Positions 1,442 to 29,417 of a stretch of DNA of 64,000 bases are shown piece after piece. Position 1 is the stretch's first letter. Each line of letters starts with the position of its first letter. Both the position numbers and the translations under genes were made by a program. The stretch is from Polaribacter sp. Z022. GTDB taxonomy: Bacteria; Bacteroidota; Bacteroidia; Flavobacteriales; Flavobacteriaceae. The notes under the pieces are model-generated. The model was not told where the DNA came from, searched no databases, and worked only from the letters and a program-made list of their open reading frames with translations. The stretch is from the NCBI RefSeq assembly GCF_023555495.1, contig NZ_JALCZO010000002.1, positions 496,001-560,000 of the forward strand, written 5' to 3'.

Positions 1442-3175
1442 TTATTCTTTTTCCCAAGTTCTCTTTGCAAGAAATTTTCGTGCTGCTTTATATCTATTTT
1501 CAAGGAGTTTAAGCTCTTTGTAATTGTTTCCCACTCCTTGGACTTCCAATAAATTTGTAAATTCTTTGGGAAGTCTTCTGGCATTGTTTTTAATTTCTCT
1601 TTCAAATTCTTTTCTAGCTGATTCTTCAATATTTCCTTCTTCCTTTCTAATTCGTTTTTTTTCTGATTCTGTATTTTCCAAGAATTCAGTTTCTTCTTGT
1701 TTAATTCTTTTAATTTCTGATTCTTCAAACTTGATTTTTCTTCCAAATCCTTTACAAATGGTTTCCTCAAGATCTCTTTCTTCTTTTCTAACTGCTTCAA
1801 TTTTTGCTTCAATAAGGATGTCTTCAAATCTAAAGCTCTTTGAAACTTCTCTTGGTATATCATTGTACAATACTCCAAGTGATGAGATAGTGCTGTTTGT
1901 AGCAAATATTTCTCTATTAATGGAGTCTCGTATTGTTTCTTCAAGTTTGTCGACTTCTTCTTTTTCTCCTCTAATACGCCAGCTAAATTCATTTTGTACT
2001 CTTTCTCTAATTTTAGTCTCAAAGTCAATTGATTCTTGTTCAATTCTTCTAATTTCAACTTCTTCTGATTTGATATTTGCAATAATTTCTGCTCTAAACT
2101 CTTGGTCGACACTTGCGCTGTTGATAGCATCTTCAAGTCTTCTTTTTTTTGCAAAATATCTTTTTTCCAAATCTGCGTATTCTTTATTCTCTTTGTCTTC
2201 TTCGTTTGAATTTCTTCCAAGTGCGTCTCTTCTATTTGATTCTTCCAAATCTCCCAATCTCTGGTTTGCAGTTTCTGTATTTCTCTCAACCTTTTGTATT
2301 TGCTGGTTAAGTCCGAGTTCAATTGTTCTGTATTGTTCAGATTGTAAACTTCTTTTAATGCTACGTATGAGCCAATTAATTTCTGCTTGTCTACATTTGA
2401 AATCTTCTTCAAAAAAGATTCTTTCGTTATCGTTAATCTGTGGTAAGTCTTCTGTATCTTTTCTGAATACTGGAATGTACTCTCTGTTTGCTTCTTTTTC
2501 ATTATAAACCCATTTATATGTTCTTGATGATTTTAATGCTTTTTCAATGTCTGCTTCAGATTTTCTTGGAATATTTATTTGAAGTGTATCAATACCTAAT
2601 CTTGATAATTTTAAAAATTTATCTGGTTTTATTTTACTGTAAACAATAAATTCAATAAATAATATTGGTTTATTATCTTTATTAAAAAAAGTAACATCTG
2701 GTCTAATCAATAGATCTTTAGCAGTAATCGTAGGGTTTTTACCCCACTTAATTACACCATCTTCATTTTCGTAAAAGGATAATTCTGCTTTTGTATAAGT
2801 TGCTTCAATTTTCCTTTTACTTTCAATTTTCATTGGAAATAAATTCTCATCAGAACCTAAAGGAGGGTATTTATATATAGCAGGAGCATTTACGTATTTT
2901 AGTTCATTTAATATTGAACGTGCTATTATCTCACGATAAGTTTTACTTGCTCTTACACATTCAACTTTTTCCTTATTAACATCTGAAGCGTAATGACTAA
3001 AATAAGAAAGCCAATTAGGGTTTTTCTTTTGAATGTTAGCTACCATTTGTGCGTGACATCCTAAACACCTATATCCTTTTAAACCGCTTTCGGCTTCAGA
3101 TATATGAATGTTTTTTTTGTGTTTTTTTGAATAAGCCCAATCACTTTTATAGTCTTCTTTTTTTTCTTTTGCCAT
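1442..3175 (-). CDS. CoiA-like zinc-finger/nuclease-fold protein with long coiled coil
   Basis: 577 residues. The N-terminus resembles CoiA-type competence/defence proteins: a probable zinc site made of C37xxC40, H61 and C73, then a predicted PD-(D/E)xK-like core with RPDV (D160) and ILFIEF (E175) followed by K181. Residues about 265-540 are almost entirely charged Glu/Arg/Lys heptads, a long coiled coil. The gene lies between a prokaryotic Argonaute and an McrB-like gene on the same strand, which suggests an effector nuclease or sensor role; that is inference. A second frame is open from 2502 to 1375 on the same strand and ends exactly over the start of the McrB-like gene, so the true C-terminus could differ from the stop at 1442 if a +1 shift occurs near the A5 run. 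Confidence 0.7.
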   Translation of the reverse strand: MAKEKKEDYKSDWAYSKKHKKNIHISEAESGLKGYRCLGCHAQMVANIQKKNPNWLSYFSHYASDVNKEKVECVRASKTYREIIARSILNELKYVNAPAIYKYPPLGSDENLFPMKIESKRKIEATYTKAELSFYENEDGVIKWGKNPTITAKDLLIRPDVTFFNKDNKPILFIEFIVYSKIKPDKFLKLSRLGIDTLQINIPRKSEADIEKALKSSRTYKWVYNEKEANREYIPVFRKDTEDLPQINDNERIFFEEDFKCRQAEINWLIRSIKRSLQSEQYRTIELGLNQQIQKVERNTETANQRLGDLEESNRRDALGRNSNEEDKENKEYADLEKRYFAKKRRLEDAINSASVDQEFRAEIIANIKSEEVEIRRIEQESIDFETKIRERVQNEFSWRIRGEKEEVDKLEETIRDSINREIFATNSTISSLGVLYNDIPREVSKSFRFEDILIEAKIEAVRKEERDLEETICKGFGRKIKFEESEIKRIKQEETEFLENTESEKKRIRKEEGNIEESARKEFEREIKNNARRLPKEFTNLLEVQGVGNNYKELKLLENRYKAARKFLAKRTWEKE

Positions 3176-3457: not shown

Positions 3458-5539
3458 TTAAAGAAACCATAGTTTATCTTTTGCGTGATCTGGTATATTT
3501 CCTTGAAAACGTGGGGCTATTTGTGCTACCATTTCTGGGTATTTTATTGTGATAGGTACGTTTTGCTGCCTTAATGATTTCCAATACAATCTGCTGAATT
3601 GATATACTTGTGTTAGTAATTCTAAAGTGATGTTTGCATCTTCAAATGCGTCTTTGTCTGGACTTGATATACCTATTTTAATAGGGAAGGGGTAACCTTC
3701 TGATGCTGAATATTTATTATGATTGCTATATCTTGCATTGTTGAATAGCAAGAATTTATTATAACCTATTCTAATATAAGACCCGCTTTTTGGCATTAAC
3801 TCCTGCCAATCTTTGTCATATGCAATGATGTCTTGTGCTTCTGTTTTATTTATGTTTAAAATATATAATGGTATGTTTAAACCGAGTTTTTGCATTCCTT
3901 CTTTTATGGGTTTTATTTCTTTATCACTCATGTCTTTATAGAAATGTATTACTACTTTATGGGGTTCTATTTGTGCCGAAAATTCTCTTATTTTTCTACA
4001 AATGCTCCCTGCTAAATCTAGATTGTTGTTTTCTGAGAAATAATCGAAGCCTCTAAAGAGTCCGTTGTTTTGAAAACTAAAAGCACTTGCAATGTATCTT
4101 CTGTTTTCATCTTGAAACATAAATGCACCTACACCAATTACGAGTTCTTTTTTTTCGGTTACTGCTAATTTCCAGGGAACACCTCCTAATTTTGCATGCA
4201 TTGCTAAAGATATGTTGTGTAATGTATATTGATAACTATTTGGTTTGTTTACCTCTTTTTGCATTTTATTATAATCTATTGCTTGCGTAACAATGCTCTC
4301 ATTGAGTAAAAGTTCTTTTACTTTTATATAGACCATTCTATCTTCTTTGTTGGGGGTAAACTTATCAAACGGACTGATATAAAAAACTGCATATTGCACA
4401 TTGTCATGGTCAAATTCCATTTGCTCTAATTGTTTTATGATTTCTGGAATTGGGTTTGAACTATTTTGATACTCGATAAAATGCTCGTTAGACAGTTTTA
4501 CTTTTATATTGATATACTTTTCTAAGCCTTGGTAGTAGGTTTTATTACCCGTACCTTTTGTTAAATAATTATAGAGAATTTTTATTTTTTCTTGATGACT
4601 TTTATGATGAATGAAAAAGAATTTGATGTTTGGTTTTTCTGGTCTGCGATAAGGTTTGAATTTTCCTAATTCTTTTTTTGGAAATAGTCCTTTGTTTTTA
4701 TTGGCATATTCTAAGGCTCCTTTTTGAGCATTTATACCATTTAAAAGTTTTGTAGGCACTTTTAAAAAATCGTTACCGTATATAGGAATGATTTCTTTAA
4801 ATTGATCTGTAAGTATGTAAGCTTTTGCAAACGAGGTAATATTCTCTAAATATTTACGATATCTATTACTACGCTCAGGTTTGGAATCTGGTATATTGTA
4901 AATTTTTGCTAACTCTCTACGCAATAAAGGGAAAGCTTTGTTAAACTCTAAACTGTTGTAAAAGTCTTGTTTGTTAGGGTCGTTTAATTTTTGATAATTG
5001 AAAACCGAATTTTTATATACTGTTCTTTTTATTAAAGTAGTGTCTTCTATTTCTGAAATAGGGATGTTCATTACTTTAGCAATGCCATCAAAAGAAATCA
5101 TTAATTCTGGATGCTTAGAAACTTTCGCAAATTGAATTTTTAGTGAAAATTTATAATACTGTTGGTATAAAGCATTTGTTGCTTTTTTTGCAGGTAACCA
5201 TACTTGAGTATCTCTGATGAAATTTTTAGTAACAACGAACCCTTTTTCTTTAAAATAGCTTCTTATTTGGTGTTTTAAGAACTGCTTATAAATGAGCAAG
5301 TCTTTCTTATACATTTCTATTTCTATAGCAATAGCCCCTTTTGTTTGAGTTGTAAAGGTTGTATAAATATGCTCTGTTTCTGTATTATTTAATTCAGGAA
5401 ATGCATTTAAAATTTTTGAAGACCATTTGTATTTATGAATGGGATGGCTGTTTAACGTTTCTTGTATTGTAAAATAGAAGATTGGTTGTTTTTTAGGCCA
5501 ATTGAAAGATAAGATATTAAAGGATAGATTTTTTGACAT
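3458..5539 (-). CDS. Long prokaryotic Argonaute with degenerate PIWI active site
   Basis: 693 residues, the length of a long pAgo. The MID region is about residues 300-445. The PIWI domain (445-693) opens with the AKLGGVPWKL signature (449-458) and ends with a hydrophobic -WFL terminus typical of Argonautes. At the position of the first catalytic Asp (normally IG-hydrophobic-D) the protein reads VIGVGAF, giving Gly471. The HFYKDM segment stands where HRDG-type motifs are usual, so a slicer-competent DEDX tetrad is unlikely. Known inactive long pAgos act as guide-dependent sensors that trigger a separate effector; by analogy the downstream CoiA-like protein is a candidate partner, although 282 nt of repeats separate them. 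It is divergent from the ompA gene. The Argonaute assignment is firm; inactivity is inferred from the residues. Confidence 0.88.
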   Translation of the reverse strand: MSKNLSFNILSFNWPKKQPIFYFTIQETLNSHPIHKYKWSSKILNAFPELNNTETEHIYTTFTTQTKGAIAIEIEMYKKDLLIYKQFLKHQIRSYFKEKGFVVTKNFIRDTQVWLPAKKATNALYQQYYKFSLKIQFAKVSKHPELMISFDGIAKVMNIPISEIEDTTLIKRTVYKNSVFNYQKLNDPNKQDFYNSLEFNKAFPLLRRELAKIYNIPDSKPERSNRYRKYLENITSFAKAYILTDQFKEIIPIYGNDFLKVPTKLLNGINAQKGALEYANKNKGLFPKKELGKFKPYRRPEKPNIKFFFIHHKSHQEKIKILYNYLTKGTGNKTYYQGLEKYINIKVKLSNEHFIEYQNSSNPIPEIIKQLEQMEFDHDNVQYAVFYISPFDKFTPNKEDRMVYIKVKELLLNESIVTQAIDYNKMQKEVNKPNSYQYTLHNISLAMHAKLGGVPWKLAVTEKKELVIGVGAFMFQDENRRYIASAFSFQNNGLFRGFDYFSENNNLDLAGSICRKIREFSAQIEPHKVVIHFYKDMSDKEIKPIKEGMQKLGLNIPLYILNINKTEAQDIIAYDKDWQELMPKSGSYIRIGYNKFLLFNNARYSNHNKYSASEGYPFPIKIGISSPDKDAFEDANITLELLTQVYQFSRLYWKSLRQQNVPITIKYPEMVAQIAPRFQGNIPDHAKDKLWFL

Positions 5540-7323: not shown

Positions 7324-8070
7324 ATGCCTGAAAAAATTAAAGCCTTAATTGTTGAAGACGATGCTGTAAGTATAAGGCTTCTAACCCTTTTATTGAATAA
7401 GTATTGTGAAGAGATTGAAATTATAGGAGAAGCCAAAAATTCTATAGAGTTTATAGATAGGCTTTTAGCTTTAAAACCAGATCTTCTTTTTTTAGATATT
7501 GATATTGGAGAGAAAAGAAACACCTTAGAAATTTTACATGAAATAGGTGAAATAGATTGCGAAATTATTATTACCAGTTCACATAAAGATTATGCTATAA
7601 AAGCCATTAATGAATATCATGTATCTAGTTATATTGTAAAACCCATTAGTACTATAAAGTTGAAAAAAGCAGTAGAAACTGTTATAAAAAACCTACAGTA
7701 TAAAAAAGCATTTTCTGAAAGACTGCAAAATATTGAGCCACTAGATAGTATTATTGCTTTGCCTAACCTAAATTCTGTAAATCTTGTTGACGCTAAAGAT
7801 GTTTTGTATTTAGAAGCCGATGGGAAATATACTGTTTTTCATTTAGTGAAAGATACAAGTATAGTTGTGTCTAAAAATATTGGACATTATGAAACTTATT
7901 TGCCTAAGCATTTATTTTTTAGAATACACCATAAATATATTGTGAATCTTAAAAAGGTAATTAGTATTCAAAGAACCGATGGCGATTATTGTATGTTGAA
8001 AAACGGAAAATCTTTGTCTATTGCCAAAAGAAGGATAGACAATCTTAGGAAATTTTTGCATTTAAAATAA
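7324..8070 (+). CDS. LytTR-family response regulator
   Basis: 248 residues. Receiver domain at 1-120 with the acidic pair at 11-13 (EDD), phosphoacceptor Asp58 in LLFLDID and the KP motif near 105. A LytTR DNA-binding domain occupies about 150-247. It is closely paralogous to the minus-strand regulator at 19036-19785: both end in KRRxxxLxKFLxLK and share the YLEADGKYTVFHL / YLEANGKYTIFHL block. No kinase is directly adjacent; the TPR histidine kinase at 16.1 kb is a candidate partner. Direct repeats of LytTR type upstream of ompA and of the T9SS/DGR operon are plausible targets. Confidence 0.93.
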   Translation: MPEKIKALIVEDDAVSIRLLTLLLNKYCEEIEIIGEAKNSIEFIDRLLALKPDLLFLDIDIGEKRNTLEILHEIGEIDCEIIITSSHKDYAIKAINEYHVSSYIVKPISTIKLKKAVETVIKNLQYKKAFSERLQNIEPLDSIIALPNLNSVNLVDAKDVLYLEADGKYTVFHLVKDTSIVVSKNIGHYETYLPKHLFFRIHHKYIVNLKKVISIQRTDGDYCMLKNGKSLSIAKRRIDNLRKFLHLK

Positions 8071-8288: not shown

Positions 8289-9830
8289 ATGAAGAAAATT
8301 ATGTGTTTTATGCTCTTTGTTTCCATTGCCCTACAGGGGTGGTCTCAAGAGTTACACGTAGCTTCTGGGGGAGCAATGTATGTGTCTTCCGAAAGTTATG
8401 TTTACGTTGACGATGACGTTGACGTTGTAAGTGGTGGGGATCTCACCATAAATTCTGATGCTACCCATAGTGGCTCTTTTTTGGTAACAGGTTCTGCTTC
8501 TGGAGATATTAGTTACCAACGCTATGTAACAGGTAACCGTTGGCATTTTGTATCTGCCCCTGTAACTACCCAAGCAATTGGTGATTTTGCCACAGAGGCA
8601 GCCAATGATGTTGGTGTAAGTAGTACAGGTAATTATGGGATTTCATTTTACAAAAATGACAATGCCCAAGGAACTCGTTGGCAGTATTATACAGTAGCTG
8701 CTGGAGCTTTAGGAGCTTCTACTGCTGGAGATTTTGTAAGTGGAAAAGGGTATTCTAACTTTAGAGATTCTGATGGTATTTACACTTTTACAGGTGAAAT
8801 GGCCACTACAGATGTAAGTATAACCATACCTGCAAATGCTATTTTACCAGATGTATCTACCAACCATTTATGGAGTGTTGTTGGTAATCCTTACCCATCT
8901 TTTATAAATGGTGCTGCCCTTTTAACAGCAAACCAAAGTAATTTAGACCCTAACTACAATCAATTAAATGTTTGGAATGGTAGTGATTACCAAGTAGTTA
9001 ATTTTGCTAATCCTGCAAAAATTGCACCAGGACAAGCTTTTATGGTAGACCCTGCACAAAATAATGTAACTTTTACATTTACTAAAAGTTTACAATCTAT
9101 ACAAGAAGAAGCTACTGCTACTTTTTACAGAACAGCTGCAACTCCAGAAATTACTGTAAAATTAAAGAGTGGTAAAGATACTAAAACAACGAGTCTTAAG
9201 TATTTTAATAATACAACTACTGGTTTAGATAGTGGTTGGGATGCTGGTACATACCAAGATTCAAACCCTACGTTTGCTTTAGATACTCATTTAGTATCTG
9301 GTAGTAATGGTATTAATTTTACTTTACAATGCTTACCTAATTTTAATTACCAATCTTCTGTAGTACCATTATCTGTAGTTGCAAAAGCAAACCAAACACT
9401 TGCTTTTAGTACAACAACAGCTAATTTGCCAGAAGGTATTAATGTATATATAGAAGATAAAGTTACCAATACTATTACAGATATTTCTACAGGTACCTAC
9501 AATGTTATACCTACAGAAGCACTAAATGGAATTGGTCGTTTTTATTTACATACTGCTTCTAGTGTGTTAAGTACAGAAGATAATCTTTTAACAAATGCTT
9601 TAAATCTTTATAAAACTAACAATAGTACACTTAGAGTTATTGGTTTACAAAACCAAGCAAATACTACTATTAACATGTATAGTATAACTGGTAAACAAGT
9701 ATTAGCTAAACAATTTAGTGCACAAAACGTACAAGACATTGCTTTACCAAAAAGCTTAGCTACAGGTATTTACGTTGTGAATGTTATTTCTGATAAAGTT
9801 GAGTTTACTAAAAAAATAATTATAGAATAA
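8289..9830 (+). CDS. T9SS-sorted secreted surface protein
   Basis: 513 residues. Signal peptide (MKKIMCFMLFVSIALQGWSQ), a low-complexity Gly/Ser/Thr-rich extracellular region, and a C-terminal type A T9SS sorting domain (INMYSITGKQVL ... GIYVVNVI ... TKKIIIE) that directs export through the outer membrane and removal of the tail. The region from about residue 70 to the end is paralogous to the C-terminal part of the 1020-residue protein at 57895-60957; both contain GIGRFYLHTASSVLS and similar blocks. Only 5 nt separate it from the mini-peptide gene at 9836, a pairing repeated at the other locus. Function beyond surface display is unknown. Confidence 0.88.
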   Translation: MKKIMCFMLFVSIALQGWSQELHVASGGAMYVSSESYVYVDDDVDVVSGGDLTINSDATHSGSFLVTGSASGDISYQRYVTGNRWHFVSAPVTTQAIGDFATEAANDVGVSSTGNYGISFYKNDNAQGTRWQYYTVAAGALGASTAGDFVSGKGYSNFRDSDGIYTFTGEMATTDVSITIPANAILPDVSTNHLWSVVGNPYPSFINGAALLTANQSNLDPNYNQLNVWNGSDYQVVNFANPAKIAPGQAFMVDPAQNNVTFTFTKSLQSIQEEATATFYRTAATPEITVKLKSGKDTKTTSLKYFNNTTTGLDSGWDAGTYQDSNPTFALDTHLVSGSNGINFTLQCLPNFNYQSSVVPLSVVAKANQTLAFSTTTANLPEGINVYIEDKVTNTITDISTGTYNVIPTEALNGIGRFYLHTASSVLSTEDNLLTNALNLYKTNNSTLRVIGLQNQANTTINMYSITGKQVLAKQFSAQNVQDIALPKSLATGIYVVNVISDKVEFTKKIIIE

Positions 9831-9835
9831 TTTTT

Positions 9836-10021
9836 ATGAATACAACAGATAAAAACAAGAAAGCCGAAGACATTACACGTAAAGATGCTATTAAAAAAAT
9901 AGGTACTTACGGTAAATATGCAGCCCTAACAGCACTAGGTACGTATATGATTTTAAATCCACAAAAAGCGCAAGCTTCTAGTGTAGCAGATGACCCAGGT
10001 ACAAACGGTGGATTCTTCTAA
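9836..10021 (+). CDS. Tiny secreted peptide precursor, partner of the T9SS protein
   Basis: 61 residues: a charged N-terminus, a TRKDAIKKIG motif resembling a weak twin-arginine (Tat) signal, a hydrophobic stretch, then a NPQKAQA signal-peptidase site. Cleavage there leaves a mature peptide of about 14-15 residues (SSVADDPGTNGGFF). A paralogue at 60984-61154 shares 33 of 35 residues in the signal region but has a different, roughly 10-residue mature end. Both follow a T9SS protein with almost no gap. Conservation at two loci argues that it is a real gene. Function is unknown; a signal-like peptide or a T9SS accessory are options. Confidence 0.75.
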   Translation: MNTTDKNKKAEDITRKDAIKKIGTYGKYAALTALGTYMILNPQKAQASSVADDPGTNGGFF

Positions 10022-10048
10022 TATTAATTAGGAATAAAAATGAGAAAA

Positions 10049-10615
10049 ATGAAAAAAACAATTATTACACTAAGTGCAGTACTATTTAGCTTTTTAGCAA
10101 TGGCGCAAGAAAGAGAAAGATCTTTTGATTTACATACTGGTAATTGGGAAATAGCCGCCTTATTTGGCTCTATTAATTTTGATAATACTGCCACTGTTAA
10201 CGTACAAGACAACATTAATATAGGGTTTACAGTAGAAGGTACTAGAAAATTTAAAAACAATTTATTTTTAAATGCAGGGGTAAGTTTTAGTTCTGGTAAA
10301 GAATTAGGTGAGTTATACGAAAACCCTTTAACCTACTTTTCTGTAAATGCAGATGTTGGGTATAGATTTAAATTAAAAGAAATTACAAAACCTTTTGTAG
10401 TGCCTTATGTTGCAATTGGAGGTAGTTATATAAATGCTGCAAACACATTACCAAATGCAGACAGCAGTTATTCTATTAATACCACAGTTGGGTTTATCTT
10501 TTGGTTAAACCAATCTAATTTTGGGTTAACTATTAGAGACACTTACAAATTTGTAGAGAGTGACTATATGGTTAACCACAACCAAATTTTGGTAGGACTT
10601 AGATATAAATTATAA
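10049..10615 (+). CDS. Outer membrane beta-barrel protein
   Basis: 188 residues from the ATG at 10049, which gives a clean signal peptide (KKTIITLSAVLFSFLAMAQ); 10040 is an alternative ATG three codons upstream. The mature part has alternating amphipathic strands and ends in GLRYKL with aromatic residues typical of small outer membrane barrels. It lies 27 nt downstream of the mini-peptide gene and probably shares its transcript. No catalytic motif is seen. Confidence 0.8.
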   Translation: MKKTIITLSAVLFSFLAMAQERERSFDLHTGNWEIAALFGSINFDNTATVNVQDNINIGFTVEGTRKFKNNLFLNAGVSFSSGKELGELYENPLTYFSVNADVGYRFKLKEITKPFVVPYVAIGGSYINAANTLPNADSSYSINTTVGFIFWLNQSNFGLTIRDTYKFVESDYMVNHNQILVGLRYKL

Positions 10616-10872: not shown

Positions 10873-11766
10873 ATGAAAAAAATATTATTAAGCGTTGCAT
10901 TTATTGCAGCAAGTTTTACAAGTATTGCACAAGTAGGTGTAGGTACAACAAACCCAGATGCGTCTGCAGCTTTAGATGTAGAAAGCACAACAAAAGGTTT
11001 TTTACCACCACGTATGACACAAGTACAAATGAATGCCATTGCCTCTCCAGCAGAAGGTTTAATAGTGTATTGTTTAGACTGTACAACAAAAGGATTATAT
11101 GTAAACAATGGTAACGAGTTTGTTAATGTTGCTAGTGGTGCTAGCGCATCTGCAGCAGCAGGACCTCCTAGTGATACAACAACTACAGTAGTAGAAGTTG
11201 CAGGGCAAAACGGTACAATTTGGATGGATCGTAACCTAGGCGCTACACAACAAGCAACAAGTAGTACAGATGCTGCATCTTACGGAGATTTATACCAATG
11301 GGGTAGAGCAGCAGACGGACACCAAATTAGAACTTCTTCTACTGTGGCAGCACCAAGTACAGTTACAAGTGCAGACCCTGGACATGGAGACTTTATCTTA
11401 ACAGATGCTACAACAGATAATAACTGGACAAACTTTGCAGGTGAAGATGGTTTATGGCAATCTGGTTTAAACGATCCTTGCCCAACAGGTTATAGAATAC
11501 CTACAGAAACAGAGTTAGATAACGAGCGTTCAGCATTTAGCTCTAACAATGCAGCTGGAGCAGCTAGTAGTGCTTTAGCTTTACCCGCAGCAGGTAGCCG
11601 TAGCCGCAGTAATGGTGCGCTTAGCGTTGTTGGTAGTTACGGCTACTATTGGTCAAGTACGGTTAGTGGTACTAACGCACGTAGCCTCCACTTTCTTAGT
11701 AGTAATGCTTTCGTCAATACTAACAATAGGGCTCGCGGTTCCTCTGTTCGTTGCATTAAGGAATAG
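10873..11766 (+). CDS. DGR target (variable) protein, secreted, FISUMP/C-type-lectin-like
   Basis: 297 residues. Signal peptide (cleavage near SIA-Q19), then a VGVGTTNPDASAALDV segment common in flavobacterial surface proteins, a Ser/Thr/Ala-rich linker, and a C-terminal domain of the Fibrobacter major paralogous type (IWMDRNLGA, DLYQWGR, CPTGYRIPTETEL, YYWSST, RCIKE), a fold used by DGR targets. Residues 238-297 are encoded by the VR. Compared with the TR, 15 residues differ: 242, 244, 245, 249, 251, 252, 256, 258, 271, 273, 275, 280, 281, 288, 290; 13 of them are Asn in the TR translation. The scaffold YWSSTVSGTNAR is unchanged. No T9SS tail or lipobox is seen, so the surface attachment route is unclear. 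Confidence 0.93.
   Translation: MKKILLSVAFIAASFTSIAQVGVGTTNPDASAALDVESTTKGFLPPRMTQVQMNAIASPAEGLIVYCLDCTTKGLYVNNGNEFVNVASGASASAAAGPPSDTTTTVVEVAGQNGTIWMDRNLGATQQATSSTDAASYGDLYQWGRAADGHQIRTSSTVAAPSTVTSADPGHGDFILTDATTDNNWTNFAGEDGLWQSGLNDPCPTGYRIPTETELDNERSAFSSNNAAGAASSALALPAAGSRSRSNGALSVVGSYGYYWSSTVSGTNARSLHFLSSNAFVNTNNRARGSSVRCIKE
11581..11763 (+). other. DGR variable repeat (VR)
   Basis: Aligns with 14224-14406 at a constant offset of 2643. In the 179-nt core (11585-11763) I count 22 mismatches: 21 at TR adenines (9 A-to-G, 7 A-to-T, 5 A-to-C) and one at a TR cytosine (14337 C, 11694 T). Position 11584 is a further A-to-C just outside the core. The last 22 nt, from CTCTGTTCG to the stop codon, are identical, which fits the initiation-of-mutagenic-homing (IMH) region. 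Confidence 0.95.
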
Positions 11767-11800
11767 ACACTTTGTATGTATTTGTGCACTTTGGCACTTT

Positions 11801-11829
11801 AACCTGCCATCCCTTTAGGGTGGCAGGTT
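11801..11829 (+). terminator. GC-rich hairpin 37 nt after the VR: terminator and possible DGR target-site hairpin
   Basis: AACCTGCCA-T-CCC pairs with GGGTGGCAGGTT around a TTTA loop (one bulged base) and is followed by T5. It ends the target transcript. A GC-rich hairpin just after the VR is also a known requirement for retrohoming in the Bordetella phage DGR, and the TR lacks such a structure downstream, so a double role is plausible. Confidence 0.75.
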
Positions 11830-11911
11830 TTTACTTTAAAACCGCGTAAGCGGTCAAAAAAATTTTTAAATATTATACTATTACATCTTAAAAACGCTAA
11901 TAAGTTTAGTA

Positions 11912-12463
11912 ATGACCACTAAAGAGAAAATAGCACTAGCTACCCAAAACAATAAATTGTATTGTTTTAAAGAAGGTATGTTTTGCAAAGTATATAACCA
12001 AAATGCAATGTGGTTTACACAGCATATAAAACGGTATAAGGTAAATAGTAAATTTGTTAAAGCTGTAAACCAACAAGTATTTAGTTTAGGTTTTCCATAC
12101 AGTTTAATTTTAAAAAATGGTTTAAGTTATCAAAACAAACAACTTCAAAAAATAGAAGAAACACAAAGTTTTACAGCCTATAAAATTAGTAATATTAACC
12201 AAGAAAAAGAATTTATAAATTGGTGTACTAAAATAGTAGCACTTAATAGCAATATAATTAAACAAAATACAAAACCTAGTAGTAGTTTAACAATACAACA
12301 AGAACTTAAAAATTTTGATTTAGCAAACAAAACACCGCTACAAGCTATGGAGTTTATAGCAAAATTAAAAGCGTATTGTTTGTTACCCTGTAAAGGTCTC
12401 ACACAAGAGCAAGAAACAAAGAGTAAAAAACACAAGAGTAAGAAACACAAGAGTAAGCAATAA
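11912..12463 (+). CDS. MutS-like DGR accessory protein (MSL)
   Basis: 183 residues. Residues 5-65 match the MutS mismatch-recognition domain I pattern (KLYCFKEGMFCKVYNQNA ... LGFPYS). Near residues 147-160, TPLQAMEFIAKLKA resembles the extreme C-terminal TPxEALxxLxxLK motif of MutS. The clamp, ATPase and Walker motifs are absent, so it is a stripped-down MutS relative. The tail is a Lys/Ser/His repeat (KSKKHKSKKHKSK), probably nucleic-acid binding. MutS-like accessory genes have been reported next to some DGR reverse transcriptases; its place between target and RT fits. A role in choosing mismatched VR/cDNA duplexes is inference. Confidence 0.8.
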   Translation: MTTKEKIALATQNNKLYCFKEGMFCKVYNQNAMWFTQHIKRYKVNSKFVKAVNQQVFSLGFPYSLILKNGLSYQNKQLQKIEETQSFTAYKISNINQEKEFINWCTKIVALNSNIIKQNTKPSSSLTIQQELKNFDLANKTPLQAMEFIAKLKAYCLLPCKGLTQEQETKSKKHKSKKHKSKQ

Positions 12464-12499
12464 AAATACCGGAAAATAAAACAGTAAGCCATAAAGCAA

Positions 12500-13708
12500 A
12501 TGCAAAATCTATATTACCAACTTTATTTATCTTACCTAGAAGCACGTAAAAATAAACGTAATACAAACAATCAATTAGCTTTCGAGATAGATGTAGAAAG
12601 CAAATTATATACATTAGCTAAACAGATTGTTAATAAAACATATATACCTAAACCAAGTATTGCTTTTATGGTGTATAAACCGGTACAACGAGAAATTTTT
12701 GCTGCAGATTTTTCAGACCGTGTAGTGCATCACTTAATATATAGATGTATTTATCAAGATCACATAGATCCTTTTTTAATACCAGATAGTTATAGTTGTC
12801 GTAAAGGTAAAGGCACTTTACATGGTGCAAAAAGGTTAAATTATTTTATAAAATCTTGTTCAAACAATTATACACAAGATGCCTATATTTTAAAATTAGA
12901 CATTAAAGGGTATTTTATGAACCTGAGTCATAGCATACTATATAATAAAGTAATTAAGTTTTTAAACCCAAACATACGGTATTTGGGTATAGACTATGCT
13001 ACTTTAAATTTTCTTTTACAAAAAACTATTTTTACTAATGTAGCTTTAAATTGTAAAATTAAAGGAAACCGTTCTAATTGGAAAACCTTACCTAAAGACA
13101 AAAGTTTATTTAGTAAACCAAAAGGTATAGGTTTACCCATAGGTAATTTAACATCGCAAATTTTTGGTAATATTTTTTTAAATGAAATAGATTATTATAT
13201 AAAAAACAGTTTAAATATACAGTATTATGGCAGGTATGTAGATGATATGGTGTTTGTACATAAAGATAAAAATGTTTTAAAAAAAGCAGTACCTTTAATA
13301 CAGGCAGAATTAAATAAAATAGGCTTAACTATACACCCTAAAAAAATATACCTTCAGCATTATAGTAAAGGAGCTTTATTTTTAGGGCATTATATAAAAC
13401 CGTATCGTACATATATTAGCAATCGTACAAAAAATAATTTCTACAAAGCTATAAAACAAATTAATAAGTTATTAGATGCAACTTTTAAAATAGAATGGAC
13501 AGTAATGAAACAAATAAGAGCAACATTAAACTCTTATTTAGGTACATTAAGTCATGCAAAAACATACAATTTAATTGTAAAAGCATTGCAACAATTAAAC
13601 AGTAAGTTTCATTATTTTTTTGGTTTTACTAAAAGTTACTCTAAGTCTTATATAAAAACAGATTATTGGCAATGGCATTATTCACTAGCTTACCCGTTTA
13701 TAAATTAG
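12500..13708 (+). CDS. DGR reverse transcriptase
   Basis: 402 residues. RT motifs in order: REIFAADFSDRVVHHL (64-79), PDSYSCRKGKGTL (95-107), KLDIKGYF with catalytic Asp134, GLPIGNLTSQ (211-220) carrying the DGR-type IGxxxSQ signature, and YGRYVDDM (243-250) with the YxDD Asp pair 248-249. No maturase, endonuclease or integrase domain follows, as expected for DGR RTs. Start at ATG 12500, 37 nt after MSL; an in-frame stop lies just upstream. The 3' end overlaps avd by 37 nt, suggesting coupled translation. Expected role: adenine-mutagenic cDNA synthesis from the TR RNA. Confidence 0.96.
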   Translation: MQNLYYQLYLSYLEARKNKRNTNNQLAFEIDVESKLYTLAKQIVNKTYIPKPSIAFMVYKPVQREIFAADFSDRVVHHLIYRCIYQDHIDPFLIPDSYSCRKGKGTLHGAKRLNYFIKSCSNNYTQDAYILKLDIKGYFMNLSHSILYNKVIKFLNPNIRYLGIDYATLNFLLQKTIFTNVALNCKIKGNRSNWKTLPKDKSLFSKPKGIGLPIGNLTSQIFGNIFLNEIDYYIKNSLNIQYYGRYVDDMVFVHKDKNVLKKAVPLIQAELNKIGLTIHPKKIYLQHYSKGALFLGHYIKPYRTYISNRTKNNFYKAIKQINKLLDATFKIEWTVMKQIRATLNSYLGTLSHAKTYNLIVKALQQLNSKFHYFFGFTKSYSKSYIKTDYWQWHYSLAYPFIN

Positions 13709-14031
13709 GTTACGATGTGTTAATACAAATACACAAAATAACAAAATCTTTTACAAGAGAACATAAATATACTTTGGGCGAAAAATTAAAAGAAGAGAGC
13801 ATACAATTGTTAATACAAGTTTATAAGGCTAATAAAAGCAAAAAAGAAATTAGATTAAACACTATTGGTACAGCCAGAGAACATCTAGAAACAATACGAT
13901 TGCTCTTTAGGGTAACAAAAGATATAAACGTAATAGGAGGCAAAACGTATGTAAACATTAATTTAAAAATTGAAGAACTATCTAAACAATTAACAGCATG
14001 GCAAAAATATACAGCCAGAGCTAATGCATAA
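13672..14031 (+). CDS. avd: DGR accessory variability determinant (Avd), four-helix bundle
   Basis: 119 residues from ATG 13672; a TTG at 13666 in the same frame is less likely. It resembles the Avd/23S-intervening-sequence four-helix-bundle family (LPVYKLGYDVLIQIHKITKSF ... LGEKLKEESIQLLIQVYKA ... AREHLETIRLLFRV). It overlaps the RT gene and is followed 192 nt later by the TR. In characterised DGRs Avd forms a basic pentamer that binds the RT and the TR RNA and is essential for cDNA synthesis. A distant relative of the same fold is encoded at 54083-54445. Confidence 0.88.
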   Translation: MALFTSLPVYKLGYDVLIQIHKITKSFTREHKYTLGEKLKEESIQLLIQVYKANKSKKEIRLNTIGTAREHLETIRLLFRVTKDINVIGGKTYVNINLKIEELSKQLTAWQKYTARANA

Positions 14032-14223
14032 ATCTAAAAAAGGTTTGGTATTAGGCGTGCTTTTTTATTCCTAACACAGCCCTTATTTATTAGCAATTAC
14101 TTTAAGTAATAAATACTTAACGTTTTTAGTTAAAATTGGTATTCTCATATAAGTAATAATATAAAATAAGGACAAGACTATTTGGTCATTTACATTTTTT
14201 GTAAAATACAAGTTTGTGTTTAA
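14032..14223 (+). ncRNA. Avd-TR spacer, probable 5' part of the DGR template RNA
   Basis: 192 nt without an open frame between avd and the TR. It holds a weak TTAGG...CCTAA hairpin at about 14052-14080. In known DGRs the sequences flanking the TR are part of the structured template RNA that binds RT-Avd, so this stretch is likely transcribed with the TR. I see no clear promoter. Confidence 0.4.
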
Positions 14224-14406
14224 TTAACCGCAGCAGGTAACCGTAACAACAGTAATGGTACGCTTAACAATGTTGGTAGTAACGGCAACTATTGGTCAAG
14301 TACGGTTAGTGGTACTAACGCACGTAACCTCAACTTCAATAGTAGTAATGCTAACATCAATACTAACAATAGGGCTAACGGTAACTCTGTTCGTTGCATT
14401 AAGGAA
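14224..14406 (+). ncRNA. DGR template repeat (TR)
   Basis: Non-mutated parent of the VR. Its core has 60 adenines in 179 nt, concentrated in AAC/AAT triplets that match the frame of the target gene, so most A changes alter Asn codons; this is the classic DGR design because AAY can reach many amino acids without making a stop. It ends with the same 22-nt conserved tail as the VR, followed by AAC rather than the VR's stop codon, and only 41 nt before the start of the thioredoxin-like gene. Apparent open frames across it are VR-like echoes, not genes. Confidence 0.95.
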
Positions 14407-14447
14407 AACAATTTTTGCTATGCTATTAAATAACAAATAATATTAAA

Positions 14448-15791
14448 ATGAAAAACGTATTACTAATTACACTCTTACTAACAAACATACTGTTAGTCCA
14501 AGCCCAAACCTTAAACGGCACACTAAAGCAACATAAAGGGCAACAAATAACCTTAACAGGTTTTAACTACTACAAAACAGTAAATTTAGCTACAACTGTG
14601 GCAGACAGCCTAGGTAACTTTAGCCTAAACTACCCAAAAAACTACAAAGGTATGGCAATTTTAAACACCCAAGACAATAGTAGCTTGGTGTTTGTTTTAA
14701 CAGAACCTAGTATACATATAAAAGGTACACATTTAAATGAAACAGATAGTTTGCAATTTATAAATAGTAAAGAAAACATCAATTTTCTAAAATATGCCAA
14801 AGACCAAAGTTTGCGTAGCAATGCGTTATCTGCTTTTGCATTTTTAGAGCCACTATACAATAACAAACCGTTGTTTGCCAAACAAAAAAAGTTTTTAAAA
14901 AATCTTAAAAAAGAACAAACTCGTTTACAAAAAGAAGACGCCCAATTTGTTGCCAATTTGCATAAAGAGAGTTATACACGTTGGTTTATACCCTACCGTA
15001 AAATGGTACAAGAAATGCCAGTTATTGTCAGAAAAAAAACAGCCCAAATACCCAATGCCATTTCTTTTTTTAGAAGCACAGATTTTAACCACCCTAACTT
15101 TAAAACCAGTGGTTTATTTAAAGAGTTTGTAGAAGGGCATTATATGTTGCTAGAAAACATGGGGCAATCTTTAGATAGTAGTAATGTACAAATGAATTTA
15201 AGCTCTAAATATCTTATAGACAACCTACAAGAAAACGATAGTTTATTAAATACAGTAGCAGATAATTTATATAATTATTTTGAAAAACGTAGCTTAATAA
15301 AAGCATCAGAATATTTATCAATACAATTATTAACCACACAGCAATGTGCTTTAAATGATGATGTAGCTGCAAAATTAGAAAGCTACAGAAAAATGAAACC
15401 TGGCAATATAGCACCAGAAATAGTTTTTGAAAACAATAAAAAAATAAGCGATATAAAAACCAATAAATTGGTAGTTTTTGGTGCAAGTTGGTGTCCTCAT
15501 TGTACAAAAGAGATTCCTAAATTGGTAGAAAATTATAAAAAGTGGAAAGATAAAAATGTAGAAATTGTGTATATAAGTATAGACACAGACCAAGCTGCAT
15601 TTAAAAATACCTATAAAAATTTACCTTGGCAACAAACATATTGCGATTTTAAAGGCTGGGAAACTCAAGCTGTAAAAGATTATTATATAACAGGTACACC
15701 CACCTATTATTTATTAGATGCAAATAATACAATCTTGGTAAGGGCAAAAACGTTACTTCACGCAGATTCTTGGATTAATTATAAGATGTAA
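14448..15791 (+). CDS. Secreted thioredoxin-like (TlpA/AhpC type) protein
   Basis: 447 residues. Signal peptide (KNVLLITLLLTNILLVQAQ), a DUF4369-like N-terminal beta domain (LNGTLKQHKGQQITLTG), a helical middle, and a C-terminal thioredoxin fold with the WCPHC active site near residue 347 and a cis-proline TGTPTYYLLD motif. Expected to be a periplasmic thiol-disulfide reductase. It starts 41 nt after the DGR template repeat with no terminator between them, so TR RNA and this mRNA are probably co-transcribed. A role in folding the cysteine-containing target protein is possible but only inferred. Confidence 0.87.
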   Translation: MKNVLLITLLLTNILLVQAQTLNGTLKQHKGQQITLTGFNYYKTVNLATTVADSLGNFSLNYPKNYKGMAILNTQDNSSLVFVLTEPSIHIKGTHLNETDSLQFINSKENINFLKYAKDQSLRSNALSAFAFLEPLYNNKPLFAKQKKFLKNLKKEQTRLQKEDAQFVANLHKESYTRWFIPYRKMVQEMPVIVRKKTAQIPNAISFFRSTDFNHPNFKTSGLFKEFVEGHYMLLENMGQSLDSSNVQMNLSSKYLIDNLQENDSLLNTVADNLYNYFEKRSLIKASEYLSIQLLTTQQCALNDDVAAKLESYRKMKPGNIAPEIVFENNKKISDIKTNKLVVFGASWCPHCTKEIPKLVENYKKWKDKNVEIVYISIDTDQAAFKNTYKNLPWQQTYCDFKGWETQAVKDYYITGTPTYYLLDANNTILVRAKTLLHADSWINYKM

Positions 15792-21322: not shown

Positions 21323-23092
21323 TTATTCTTCTTTTGTGGTATTGGTATATGTGTTTTGTTTTTCTCTATGAATTAAGCCAGATTTTACAAAAGCTGTTAT
21401 ATACCCTTCTGCTGTTTTATTTGGGATGTTTAAGTTTTTAGCTACTTGTAAATACTGTTGCCTAGTAAAATGTTTAGTTAAAGTTTCTAAAAAACGTTCT
21501 TTTCTGTTTTTTCTTTTATTGACTTTAGTTTCTAAAGGTAAATCATTAAAGACTTTACTACTGTGTTTTACAATTGTTTTGATTATTGATAAAGCATTCT
21601 TAAAATCTTCTTTTTCTGCAAGTTTTATCGTATTTACATCTCCATCTTCCATAATTCTAAATACAGAGAAAATCATTATGATGCGAAATGCAATTAGTCC
21701 TAATCTTCTTACAGTTGCTATGTATTCTTGAGGCTGTAAGTTTAGATATTTAGTTTGTAACGTTTCGAAAAAAGAATTGAATTGATTTTGTTGTTTTGGA
21801 GTTAATCGAATTTCTATAGCAGGATTGTGTTTGAGTGTTTTGTATAATTCTAAAAAATCATTACCCAAGTTGTTGTAATAATCGTCTAAGTTTATATTGT
21901 TGCTATTTTGAAATACATTTTTCCAAGTAGGTTTTATATTCATATAATAAAACATAAACCTACTAAATAACCCGTTTTCTGCATTAGGAATTAATGTAGC
22001 TACTTGTTTAGGAGTACCAGACAAAACTGTAGATAAACAAGGTTTTTCTATATCTACATATTCGCTATCGGTTCTTCTGTAATAACTAATTGTTTCGTGA
22101 TGAAACGCTTTTCTAAAACCATCTGAATAATTACCATAATCACTTTTAAACGCTTGAGCTAAAGTATCTCCTTCCGTTTCAAATATTAATCCTCTACCTT
22201 CATTGTCTGCAATTAATTGATACACACCAGTTACACTATTGTTTGCAGGAATGAATAACATTTGTTCTGGAGGTTTGGAAGGTTTTTCTGAATTGTCATT
22301 TTTCTTTTTTTGAAAATTATAAGTAGCCATTTCAGATTGGTATTGCTGTTTTAAAACTTTTGCTTGTTCTCGTTTTATTTTATGAACAGGGTTTACTAAG
22401 TTTTTGACTTTGTTTAATCTTCCTTTACCTGCAGAAGCAGGAGCTGTTACAAACAGGTATAAATTACTAAAAACCTTATTTTGGTCGTATATACCAAATA
22501 ATTTAGGTAAACAAGCACTAAAAGTAGTGAGTGCACCTAATAGTAAAATATCTCTTTCTTCTGAACTTGTAGCAGGTTTTACAATTTGCTTTAAAAACTC
22601 TGGTATTGTTTTATATACTTTATTGTTAATTGTAGGTAGTATCTCTTTTATTGGTTCGGTTTCTATAGTATTAGAAGCAGTATTTGTAGATTCTAGATTA
22701 TTGTCTATAATTTTTATACCTGCTTGATGAGCAAGATGATAGAAAGTTGCAATAGTAATTCCATGTCCTTTAGCATTTAAACATTTTGTGAATTGTGTAT
22801 TGCATTCTGTTTGGTTAAAATTAGGATGATTTTTACTTATTCTACAAAAATAATTTCTACCTGATTCTCCGTATTTATCTGCGATAGCAAAACCAATATT
22901 TAGCCAATTTGTATAGTTGTTTGTAATATCTATACCCGATTGCTCTATTAATGTAATGTAGTTTTCTATATTGTTATTAGTATCTGAGAAAATGGGTGTT
23001 TTATTATGAGTTGCCCTGTTATTACTTACCTTTTCTGCATTATTATTAACAGGATTTGTTAGCCACTCTTTTGGGTTGAATTCTTTTTTCAT
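21323..23092 (-). CDS. PriCT-2 / DUF3987 primase-helicase-like protein of the integrative element
   Basis: 589 residues. A PriCT-2-like segment (about 40-125: WLNIGFAIADKYGESGR ... ATFYHLAHQAG) precedes a DUF3987 domain (about 160-540) that carries a Walker-like turn (VTAPASAGKGRL) and the conserved ETEGDTLAQAFKSDYG block. Such proteins act in replication of Bacteroidota mobile elements. Its start overlaps the stop of the upstream gene by 4 nt. A different frame stays open past its stop for about 20 codons (NKDTQVIKDTEDKMPTP), so a small C-terminal frameshift cannot be excluded. Confidence 0.85.
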   Translation of the reverse strand: MKKEFNPKEWLTNPVNNNAEKVSNNRATHNKTPIFSDTNNNIENYITLIEQSGIDITNNYTNWLNIGFAIADKYGESGRNYFCRISKNHPNFNQTECNTQFTKCLNAKGHGITIATFYHLAHQAGIKIIDNNLESTNTASNTIETEPIKEILPTINNKVYKTIPEFLKQIVKPATSSEERDILLLGALTTFSACLPKLFGIYDQNKVFSNLYLFVTAPASAGKGRLNKVKNLVNPVHKIKREQAKVLKQQYQSEMATYNFQKKKNDNSEKPSKPPEQMLFIPANNSVTGVYQLIADNEGRGLIFETEGDTLAQAFKSDYGNYSDGFRKAFHHETISYYRRTDSEYVDIEKPCLSTVLSGTPKQVATLIPNAENGLFSRFMFYYMNIKPTWKNVFQNSNNINLDDYYNNLGNDFLELYKTLKHNPAIEIRLTPKQQNQFNSFFETLQTKYLNLQPQEYIATVRRLGLIAFRIIMIFSVFRIMEDGDVNTIKLAEKEDFKNALSIIKTIVKHSSKVFNDLPLETKVNKRKNRKERFLETLTKHFTRQQYLQVAKNLNIPNKTAEGYITAFVKSGLIHREKQNTYTNTTKEE

Positions 23093-23997
23093 GCTATTTG
23101 GTGTCTTTTATTAATAAATGCAGAAGGATCATGTGATAAAAAACAAGCTCTGGAAATGTCTTTACCTGAATGGTCTACTTCTATGTTATAAGTATGTTTA
23201 ATATAGTTTGTAACTGCTTTAAAATATTCTGCGTGCGTAATCTCTGAAATGTCTATTCTTATTATCCATTTTATTCCTTTACCAGAAGGCGATGTGAATA
23301 ATAATTCTGTTTCAAAGTATTGGTCAGATAGTAATTTGTCTTTTAATTCTTTTACATTTTCTAGATGGTCAAAATCAATAGTTAAAAGGTTAGAATGTTT
23401 AATTAATTCTTTATCACTTCTTTTTTTAAAAATGCCTGAAAATGTTACGTAATCGAAATTATTGGCTTTGTATTTACGAGCTTCTTTAGTGTTTTTAAGC
23501 GTTCTAAAAGTGTTTGTGATGCTTTTGTATTTGTTGCTAGTTATAAGCGTGTAAATTTGATGTAGCCACATTGTTTCTGTTGGAAATACATTTCTGATAG
23601 GTGCTTTAAAAAAGCTACATCTAGCATACCAGGTATTTTTATCGTTATAATTGCATTCTAAATGATCTTTAACTTTAATTTTTAAGTTTAAATTAAGTGT
23701 TTGATTTATTTTAAGAAGTAAATCATAATTGTTTGAAGTTTTAAAATACAATTGCGCAAAATCAAATACATCTCCTTTAAATTCATTTAAATAGATGTCT
23801 TTATGTATAGCAATGTTATTTACGATACTAATTTTTAAAGATTCTTTATTATCATTAAATGGGTTCTTTGTTATCCTAGAGTTCTTTCCTGTTAAGGAAA
23901 GAACTGTTTGATTAGGATAAAACTGTCTTAACACGTAGGTATAAATATTGATGCCATAATGTGTTTTATTAAGAATAGCTGTTCTACTTATTTCCAT
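23089..23997 (-). CDS. VirE-N / BT4734-family protein of the integrative element
   Basis: 302 residues. The C-terminal half carries the BT4734/VirE-N block (LLTIDFDHLENVKELKDKL ... LLFTSPSGKGIKWIIRID ... DISRACFLSHDPSAF), a primase-like palm fold usually paired or fused with DUF3987. The N-terminus (GKNSRITKNPFNDNKESL ... GDVFDFAQLYF) resembles the segment around primase zinc-finger regions but lacks the cysteines. Translation is coupled to both neighbours (14-nt overlap upstream, 4-nt downstream). Confidence 0.83.
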   Translation of the reverse strand: MEISRTAILNKTHYGINIYTYVLRQFYPNQTVLSLTGKNSRITKNPFNDNKESLKISIVNNIAIHKDIYLNEFKGDVFDFAQLYFKTSNNYDLLLKINQTLNLNLKIKVKDHLECNYNDKNTWYARCSFFKAPIRNVFPTETMWLHQIYTLITSNKYKSITNTFRTLKNTKEARKYKANNFDYVTFSGIFKKRSDKELIKHSNLLTIDFDHLENVKELKDKLLSDQYFETELLFTSPSGKGIKWIIRIDISEITHAEYFKAVTNYIKHTYNIEVDHSGKDISRACFLSHDPSAFINKRHQIA

Positions 23998-29257: not shown

Positions 29258-29385
29258 GCGTTTCCTTTCAGGTCAGGCTTTACGTTGCAATCTTTTAATT
29301 TGTTCTCGATTCAAATTTATTCATCCTTCATAAATTCACTCAAACTGACATTAAAAGGATTTCCACTGCAATCATTAACGCAAGC
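29258..29385. repeat. Flavobacterial intergenic repeat element
   Basis: About 128 nt beginning GCGTTTCCTTTCAGG and ending CACTGCAATCATTAACGC, with an internal inverted pair (AATCTTTTAAT near 29289 and ATTAAAAGGATT near 29350). I recognise this layout as a dispersed non-coding repeat common between genes in Flavobacteriaceae; function unknown. Confidence 0.5.
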
Positions 29386-29417
29386 TTATCAATAAACAAA
29401 AGGCTATAAAAGAAGGT

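Follow-up and report, generated by a model that had tools for sequence, protein, structure and literature searches.

A diversity-generating retroelement with a predicted lectin-like target in Polaribacter sp. Z022

The retroelement and its parts

A stretch of 64,000 nt from Polaribacter sp. Z022 (GCF_023555495.1, contig NZ_JALCZO010000002.1, positions 496,001-560,000; the whole stretch is called the window here, and all coordinates are given within it) contains what is almost certainly a diversity-generating retroelement (DGR). In this locus a reverse transcriptase (RT), together with the protein Avd, would copy the RNA of a template repeat (TR) with errors at adenines, and the resulting complementary DNA (cDNA) would replace the 3' end of a FISUMP-family gene, the variable repeat (VR), likely re-tooling the binding face of a predicted lectin-like surface protein. 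Judged from its sequence, this is an ordinary DGR of a known kind with all of its parts open, and it is likely to be active at present. The cassette runs in the order target, accessory gene, RT, Avd and TR, as follows:

10873..11766, + strand: target gene, with a signal-peptide-like start (by eye) and a C-terminal FISUMP domain (PF09603)
11581..11763, + strand: VR, changed at 22 of 62 TR adenines and 1 of 121 other bases
11801..11829, + strand: GC-rich hairpin, an inverted repeat with a stem of ~12 bp, a loop of 4-5 nt and a T run after it
11912..12463, + strand: 183-aa accessory gene, likely divergent MutS-domain-I-like (MSL-type)
12500..13708, + strand: RT of 402 aa, RVT_1 (E 5e-17), with the motifs IGNLTSQ and YVDD
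13666..14031, + strand: Avd, PF22296 (bAvd), overlapping the end of the RT, with an ATG 6 bases in
14032..14223, + strand: 5' flank of the TR, with conserved blocks
14224..14406, + strand: TR, with 19 AAY codons in the VR frame
14407..14436, + strand: 3' flank of the TR, a conserved block

The TR and VR align over 183 nt without gaps at an offset of 2643, and the homology breaks off sharply upstream. They differ at 23 positions, all but one of which are TR adenines (Fisher p = 4e-11). The changed adenines became G in 9 cases, T in 7 and C in 6, and the sole difference elsewhere is a silent C>T. The VR makes up the last 61 codons of the target open reading frame (ORF), in frame with the TR; 17 of these codons differ, 16 of them altering the residue, and 13 of the 17 are Asn codons (AAY) in the TR. 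At the 19 Asn columns, every VR codon of the window ends in C or T (19/19). Searching the 3.49-Mb, 48-contig assembly with the TR (cut-off E 0.001) returned only the TR itself and the VR, the latter at E = 3e-60, which is far beyond chance. Since the end of the target differs from the template almost only at adenines, deliberate rewriting of this predicted surface protein by the cell is likely.

A sequence-only reading of the window had proposed a complete DGR with adenine-specific divergence that diversifies a lectin-like protein, and the parts recovered here, the TR/VR pattern and the variable columns among homologues (below) bear this out. Its gap-free alignment was reproduced, and its counts for a 179-nt core (21 of 60 adenines, 1 of 119 other bases) are exact once the first four bases are omitted. 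Its figure of 13 changed Asn codons stands, but its total of 15 changed codons falls short of the 17 in the whole repeat, as it leaves out codon 238, which lies outside the core, and codon 274, which carries the silent change. The span it gave (11581-14406) omitted mention of Avd and the accessory gene, and the target ORF begins outside it, at 10873. The RT motifs IGxxxSQ and YVDD that it named are present in an ORF that is open in the assembly, and the type IX secretion system (T9SS) surface genes and LytTR regulator that it placed next to the cassette were confirmed by Pfam and NCBIfam matches.

The protein-coding parts support the same assignment. The best solved relative of the RT is 8ub7_A (E 1.7e-21), which we take to be the RT of the Bordetella phage BPP-1 DGR, while all six NCBIfam RT models listed for group II introns, retrons and DRT fell below their cut-offs, the best being TIGR04416 with 86 of 300 bits. 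Avd matches PF22296 (E 5.8e-16, 59 bits, cut-off 40) and scores below the cut-off of NF033474 (52 bits against 80); its profile found no solved relative by sequence, and neither did that of the target. The target reaches the FISUMP family PF09603 (E 6e-9, 36.9 bits, cut-off 33.9) and stays below the cut-off of TIGR02145. A fold comparison of its predicted structure reaches Mtd and other C-type lectins, so that the FISUMP domain is predicted to have a C-type-lectin-like fold.

In the BPP-1 DGR, changes are specific to adenines, the VR ends a C-type-lectin-fold gene, and a GC-rich hairpin follows the VR (PMC3240598, PMC12875486). By analogy with this prototype, cDNA synthesis would be primed on the TR RNA by RT and Avd, and retrohoming would take place at the 3' end of the VR, aided by a hairpin. 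The Polaribacter hairpin starts 38 bases 3' of the VR, where the BPP-1 hairpin/cruciform sits, and the 90 bases after the VR fold at -32 kcal/mol (RNAfold). Its loop is not GRNA and it is also terminator-like, so it may double as a terminator.

Relatives carrying the reverse transcriptase

Relative genomes and the loci within them are labelled G### and L###, respectively. The RT was found in 6 of 166 genomes of the genus (E 1e-30), including the window's own and one broken copy, and in 4 of 397 genomes of the family (E 1e-40), again including the window's own; a contig search added one further RT locus. The closest RTs are those of G036 (72% identity) and G064 (71%), both with the gene order of the window, and in all three the TR directly follows Avd and is not part of the target gene. 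Both flanks of the TR, which are conserved in an alignment of the window, G036, G064 and the broken G008, are likely part of the TR RNA. In G021 (RT 48%) the order is target, accessory, Avd, TR and RT, and in G122 (RT 49%) it is VR, Avd, TR and RT, without the accessory gene. Hairpins occur in a like position in G036, at both G064 targets and at the first target of G008; a different hairpin is present in G021, a weak one at the second target of G012, and none at the first and third copies of G134.

Adenine specificity is shared by all of these pairs, with TR/VR mismatches at 16/57 adenines and 1/123 other bases in G036, 19/60 and 1/121 in G064, 18/63 and 2/125 in G021, and 19/48 and 1/74 in G122. 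Pooled over the five TR/VR pairs of the genus, 94 of 290 adenines differ against 6 of 564 other bases. The ratio dN/dS between G036 and G064 is 0.11 for the RT, 0.14 for Avd and 0.27 for the accessory gene, so that the latter, too, is under purifying selection between these two genomes; in a wider comparison, which is near saturation, the values are 0.16 for the RT and 0.34 for Avd.

Two loci, L014 (in G122) and L063 (in G352), are DGR-like, with RTs 47-49% identical, Avd upstream and no match to the accessory protein; a TR and VR were seen in L014.

Hypervariable columns among homologues

The test on which the sequence-only reading had staked itself, variation in relatives at the adenine positions, came out in its favour at the protein level, the TR Asn codons marking the hypervariable columns over 64 homologues. 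This alignment comprised 62 sequences chosen from 120 of 5527 matches (lengths 264 to 383 aa) and the two G064 targets. The 19 AAY columns have an entropy of 2.89 bits against 0.98 for the 42 other VR columns (p = 9e-10), with 0.95 bits for residues 100-236 ahead of the VR. Even the six AAY codons that are unaltered in the VR of the window vary by 2.2 to 3.5 bits among the homologues, and only four columns outside the AAY set exceed 2 bits (283, 267, 249 and 266).

Among the five VRs linked to an intact DGR (those of the window, G036 and G021 and the two of G064), 95 of 95 codons at the Asn columns have the form NNY, against 374 of 509 in relatives without an RT (27 domains, six genomes). In two G008 domains, 18/19 and 14/19 end in C or T. 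These counts cover the 34 of 38 candidate domains that passed a coverage filter; the three copies of G134 were not among them, and G122 was not a source.

A second target and a broken cassette

G064, a one-contig genome, has one TR and two VRs. Its second VR belongs to an operon copy at a distance of 630 kb. This copy is 92 to 95% identical and lacks RT, Avd and TR; some 50 bases stand in place of the region between approximately codon 39 of the accessory gene and the TR end. Against the TR, this VR has mismatches at 23 adenines and at 3 other bases (p = 4e-10); of the 31 sites that differ between the two VRs, 27 are TR adenines. By comparison, the sequence immediately ahead of the VR (~360 bases) is identical in the pair, as is the hairpin that follows it. 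The simplest reading is that the single TR writes into both VRs, although the operon copy may instead have lost its own TR only very recently. Remote DGR targets are known in cyanobacteria (PMC7517822) and are mentioned elsewhere (PMC8144416).

The cassette of G008 has broken reading frames in both the accessory gene and the RT, and its TR lacks the middle part. Its two further FISUMP targets are recent duplicates with 4 differences in 451 bases, all before the VR; they also have a one-base length difference near the end of the VR and no VR substitution. Unlike the G064 pair, these duplicates therefore have not diverged by substitution in the VR. The contrast is drawn from one duplicate pair, which may differ in age from that of G064.

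Apparent deletion scars and arrays without a reverse transcriptase

FISUMP targets are present in 24 of the 166 genomes (E 1e-20), 20 of which have no RT match at E 1e-30; with the threshold relaxed to E 1e-5, none was found in the 10 genomes chosen as RT-less among 13 chosen genomes searched. G134 (L026) has three target copies whose matches end near residue 270; behind each comes a fragment of the accessory-gene start, and the last fragment runs into the end of a TR. Accessory fragments are also present in G012 and G017, and in G476 (L062), of another genus, the target is followed by an accessory fragment with stops. From their sequence, the fragments in G134 and G476 look like scars of DGR deletion.

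Tandem arrays form a further group. G073 (L078, 2410-16907) has nine tandem genes with two FISUMP domains each, ending at a thioredoxin-like gene and without an RT match, and smaller arrays with the same neighbours occur in G104, G111, G153 and G020. In the G073 arrays the Asn columns are again the most variable (2.11 against 1.42 bits), as they are in 4/4 array groups with three or more copies.

These loci may tentatively be read together, with the DGR as the writer of a Polaribacter lectin repertoire, although we consider this reading rather unlikely as a whole. Operons or targets would duplicate, copies would shed RT, Avd and TR by a deletion reaching from the start of the accessory gene through the TR (G064, G134), and would then be rewritten in trans by the DGR that is left (G064) or frozen and slowly decaying, perhaps up to the RT-less tandem arrays (G073, G104) that would live off a repertoire once made by a DGR. 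Several observations weigh against this. NNY codons are only mildly richer at the Asn columns of RT-less relatives (181/264 against 487/825, p = 0.006, restricted to residues having both codon kinds), with almost no enrichment in G111 (60% against 56%), and a search at E 1e-4 for accessory-gene remnants in the array loci of G073, G104, G111, G020 and G153 came back empty for all five. As the codon fingerprint is faint in the arrays, selection alone may explain their variation.

The accessory protein

The 183-aa protein is encoded beside the RT or Avd in the window, G036, G064, G021 and the broken G008. No match to it was found in the stretches around the RTs of G122, G352, G432, G236 and the metagenome-assembled genome locus L010, which ends at the start of its RT. 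In the family, its profile was found in at least 2 of 397 genomes, including the window's own, with up to nine candidates per genome scored.

There is moderate support, from sequence comparison, for a resemblance of this protein to MutS domain I, of the MSL type. The window's own protein matches no Pfam or NCBIfam family, MutS_I included, and of the 89 relatives found by profile search only one, a longer fused protein, carries a Pfam domain, which is unrelated. With thresholds relaxed, however, MutS_I was matched by 9 of 13 relatives at E up to 10 and by 29 of 54 at E up to 1 (best 5e-5), against 7 of 54 for the next family. The spacing F-x-x-G-x-F-Y agrees with that in MutS of the same organism, and the only PDB match of the narrower profile is a MutS domain, albeit the C-terminal one, i.e. 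the other end of MutS (3zlj, E 0.74). MSL, PF01624, is named with HRDC as a known DGR accessory (PMC10053308).

It is nonetheless possible, if doubtful, that the protein is a DGR-associated protein of Bacteroidota unrelated to MutS. Besides the missing MutS_I match of the window's own protein, a HHalign comparison with a narrow MutS alignment (12 genomes) was weak (probability 1.6%, E 0.032; reversed controls E 0.75 and 0.93), and the wider profile found nothing in the PDB. An AlphaFold model from 13 sequences reached a pLDDT of 52, and Foldseek with this model gave nothing significant, the best rows being other folds, with several MutS chains from rank 6 (E 0.7 and up); the structure model was therefore not used as evidence. 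The Phe and Glu of the FxE motif have a role in mismatch binding by MutS; the Phe is kept in 53 of 54 rows of the accessory alignment and the Glu is absent from all 54. With 183 aa only and without this Glu, the protein is not a MutS, but the commonness of MutS_I among its relatives, the PDB match, the shared spacing and the known MSL class speak for its being MutS-like. An MSL-type protein may bind the intermediate of cDNA and target.

The accessory protein of the window ends in a lysine-rich C-terminal tail (12380-12463, + strand) that the other 12 rows of a 13-row alignment lack.

Activity of the element and alternative explanations

The DGR could be intact in sequence yet silent, with the VR differences stemming from past activity, but this is unlikely. 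The one silent C>T in the VR does indicate some ordinary mutation, the broken cassette of G008 shows that loss does occur in the genus, and the RT is found in just 6 of 166 genomes, one of them broken. Nevertheless, none of the window's RT, Avd and accessory ORFs is interrupted, only one of the 121 non-adenine bases differs, the VR codons at the Asn columns all still end in C or T, and dN/dS is low for the RT and Avd (the wider comparison being near saturation). These observations favor an element that is currently at work.

It is highly improbable that the pair arose by ordinary duplication, with an A-rich copy diverging under selection on surface residues beside a non-DGR RT (from a group II intron, retron or DRT): in the RT-less paralogue arrays, too, variation peaks at the Asn columns, which means that selection can diversify this face, and several non-DGR RT families match the RT weakly, but the TR lies outside the target gene in three genomes, changes fall on A with the third bases of Asn codons kept as C or T to an extent that the RT-less arrays do not match, none of the six listed NCBIfam models reaches its cut-off, and the best solved relative is 8ub7.

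Comparison with known systems

The Polaribacter DGR shares with that of phage BPP-1 (mtd/avd/TR/brt) an RT, Avd, a TR, a 3'-end VR in a gene of C-type-lectin fold (here predicted), adenine-specific changes and a hairpin after the VR. It differs in being set among T9SS and LytTR genes, in its order with the TR last, and in having an extra MSL-like gene, a FISUMP-family target and a non-GRNA hairpin loop. Of the phage RTs, those of the Bacteroides phage DGRs (F2, F4, Bacuni_F1) are some of the nearest, at 40-41% identity. The 104 phage matches all fall below 60% identity, and those listed reach 41% at most; in contrast to these phages, no phage structural genes were found among the scanned neighbours of the cassette.

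As in DGRs with an MSL accessory, a gene product that appears similar to MutS domain I is encoded beside the RT. The Polaribacter cassette, however, has Avd too, and its accessory protein, which lacks the FxE Glu, is too divergent to be named by Pfam. The target paralogue elsewhere in the genome of G064 is similar to the remote variable proteins of cyanobacterial DGRs (PMC7517822), but in G064 the surrounding genes were duplicated as well, in a copy without RT, Avd and TR. The cyanobacterial targets are described as mostly cytosolic and often kinase-linked (PMC7517822).

Genomic neighbourhood

The cassette lies within an operon-like row of LytTR-regulator, T9SS, outer-membrane beta-barrel and thioredoxin-like genes, with a TPR/histidine kinase gene also nearby:

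7324..8070, + strand: LytTR response regulator (PF04397, PF00072)
8289..9830, + strand: T9SS-sorted protein (PF18962, TIGR04183)
9836..10021, + strand: conserved peptide of 61 aa, no Pfam family
10040..10615, + strand: outer-membrane beta-barrel protein (PF13505)
14448..15791, + strand: thioredoxin-like protein directly 3' of the TR (PF13905)

The 61-aa peptide has 11 copies in 10 of the 15 relative loci scanned, with 55-75% identity, always between the T9SS gene and the target.

Further features were observed elsewhere in the window. A prokaryotic Argonaute (3458-5539, - strand) has a Piwi domain (Pfam) and matches PADLOC pAgo at E 8e-258; it adjoins a 577-aa ORF (1442-3175, - strand) with no Pfam or PADLOC family at E 0.001. 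Adjacent DUF3987/PriCT_2 and BT4734-like_N proteins (21323-23997, - strand) look like part of a mobile element, and a Flavo-1 small RNA (Rfam RF01705, above the gathering score) lies at 29267-29390 (- strand).

Significance

Judged by titles and the starts of abstracts, no paper treating this locus was found in the open-licence literature. In the same literature nothing was found on DGR and FISUMP together, and DGR with Polaribacter returned only work on crAss-like phages. What the locus contributes is a clean flavobacterial DGR whose predicted surface target sits in a defined row of genes. Its main value, however, lies in the natural series within one genus, with one target (window, G036), one TR and two targets (G064), a broken cassette (G008), deletion scars (G134) and RT-less arrays (G073). 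With this series one can test by what route DGRs reach duplicated targets, how they disappear and whether what they produced persists after them. An accessory protein that is MutS-like at both ends yet lacks the FxE Glu would, further, open to experiment the question whether a DGR supplies a factor of its own for handling or shielding the mismatched intermediate of cDNA and target.

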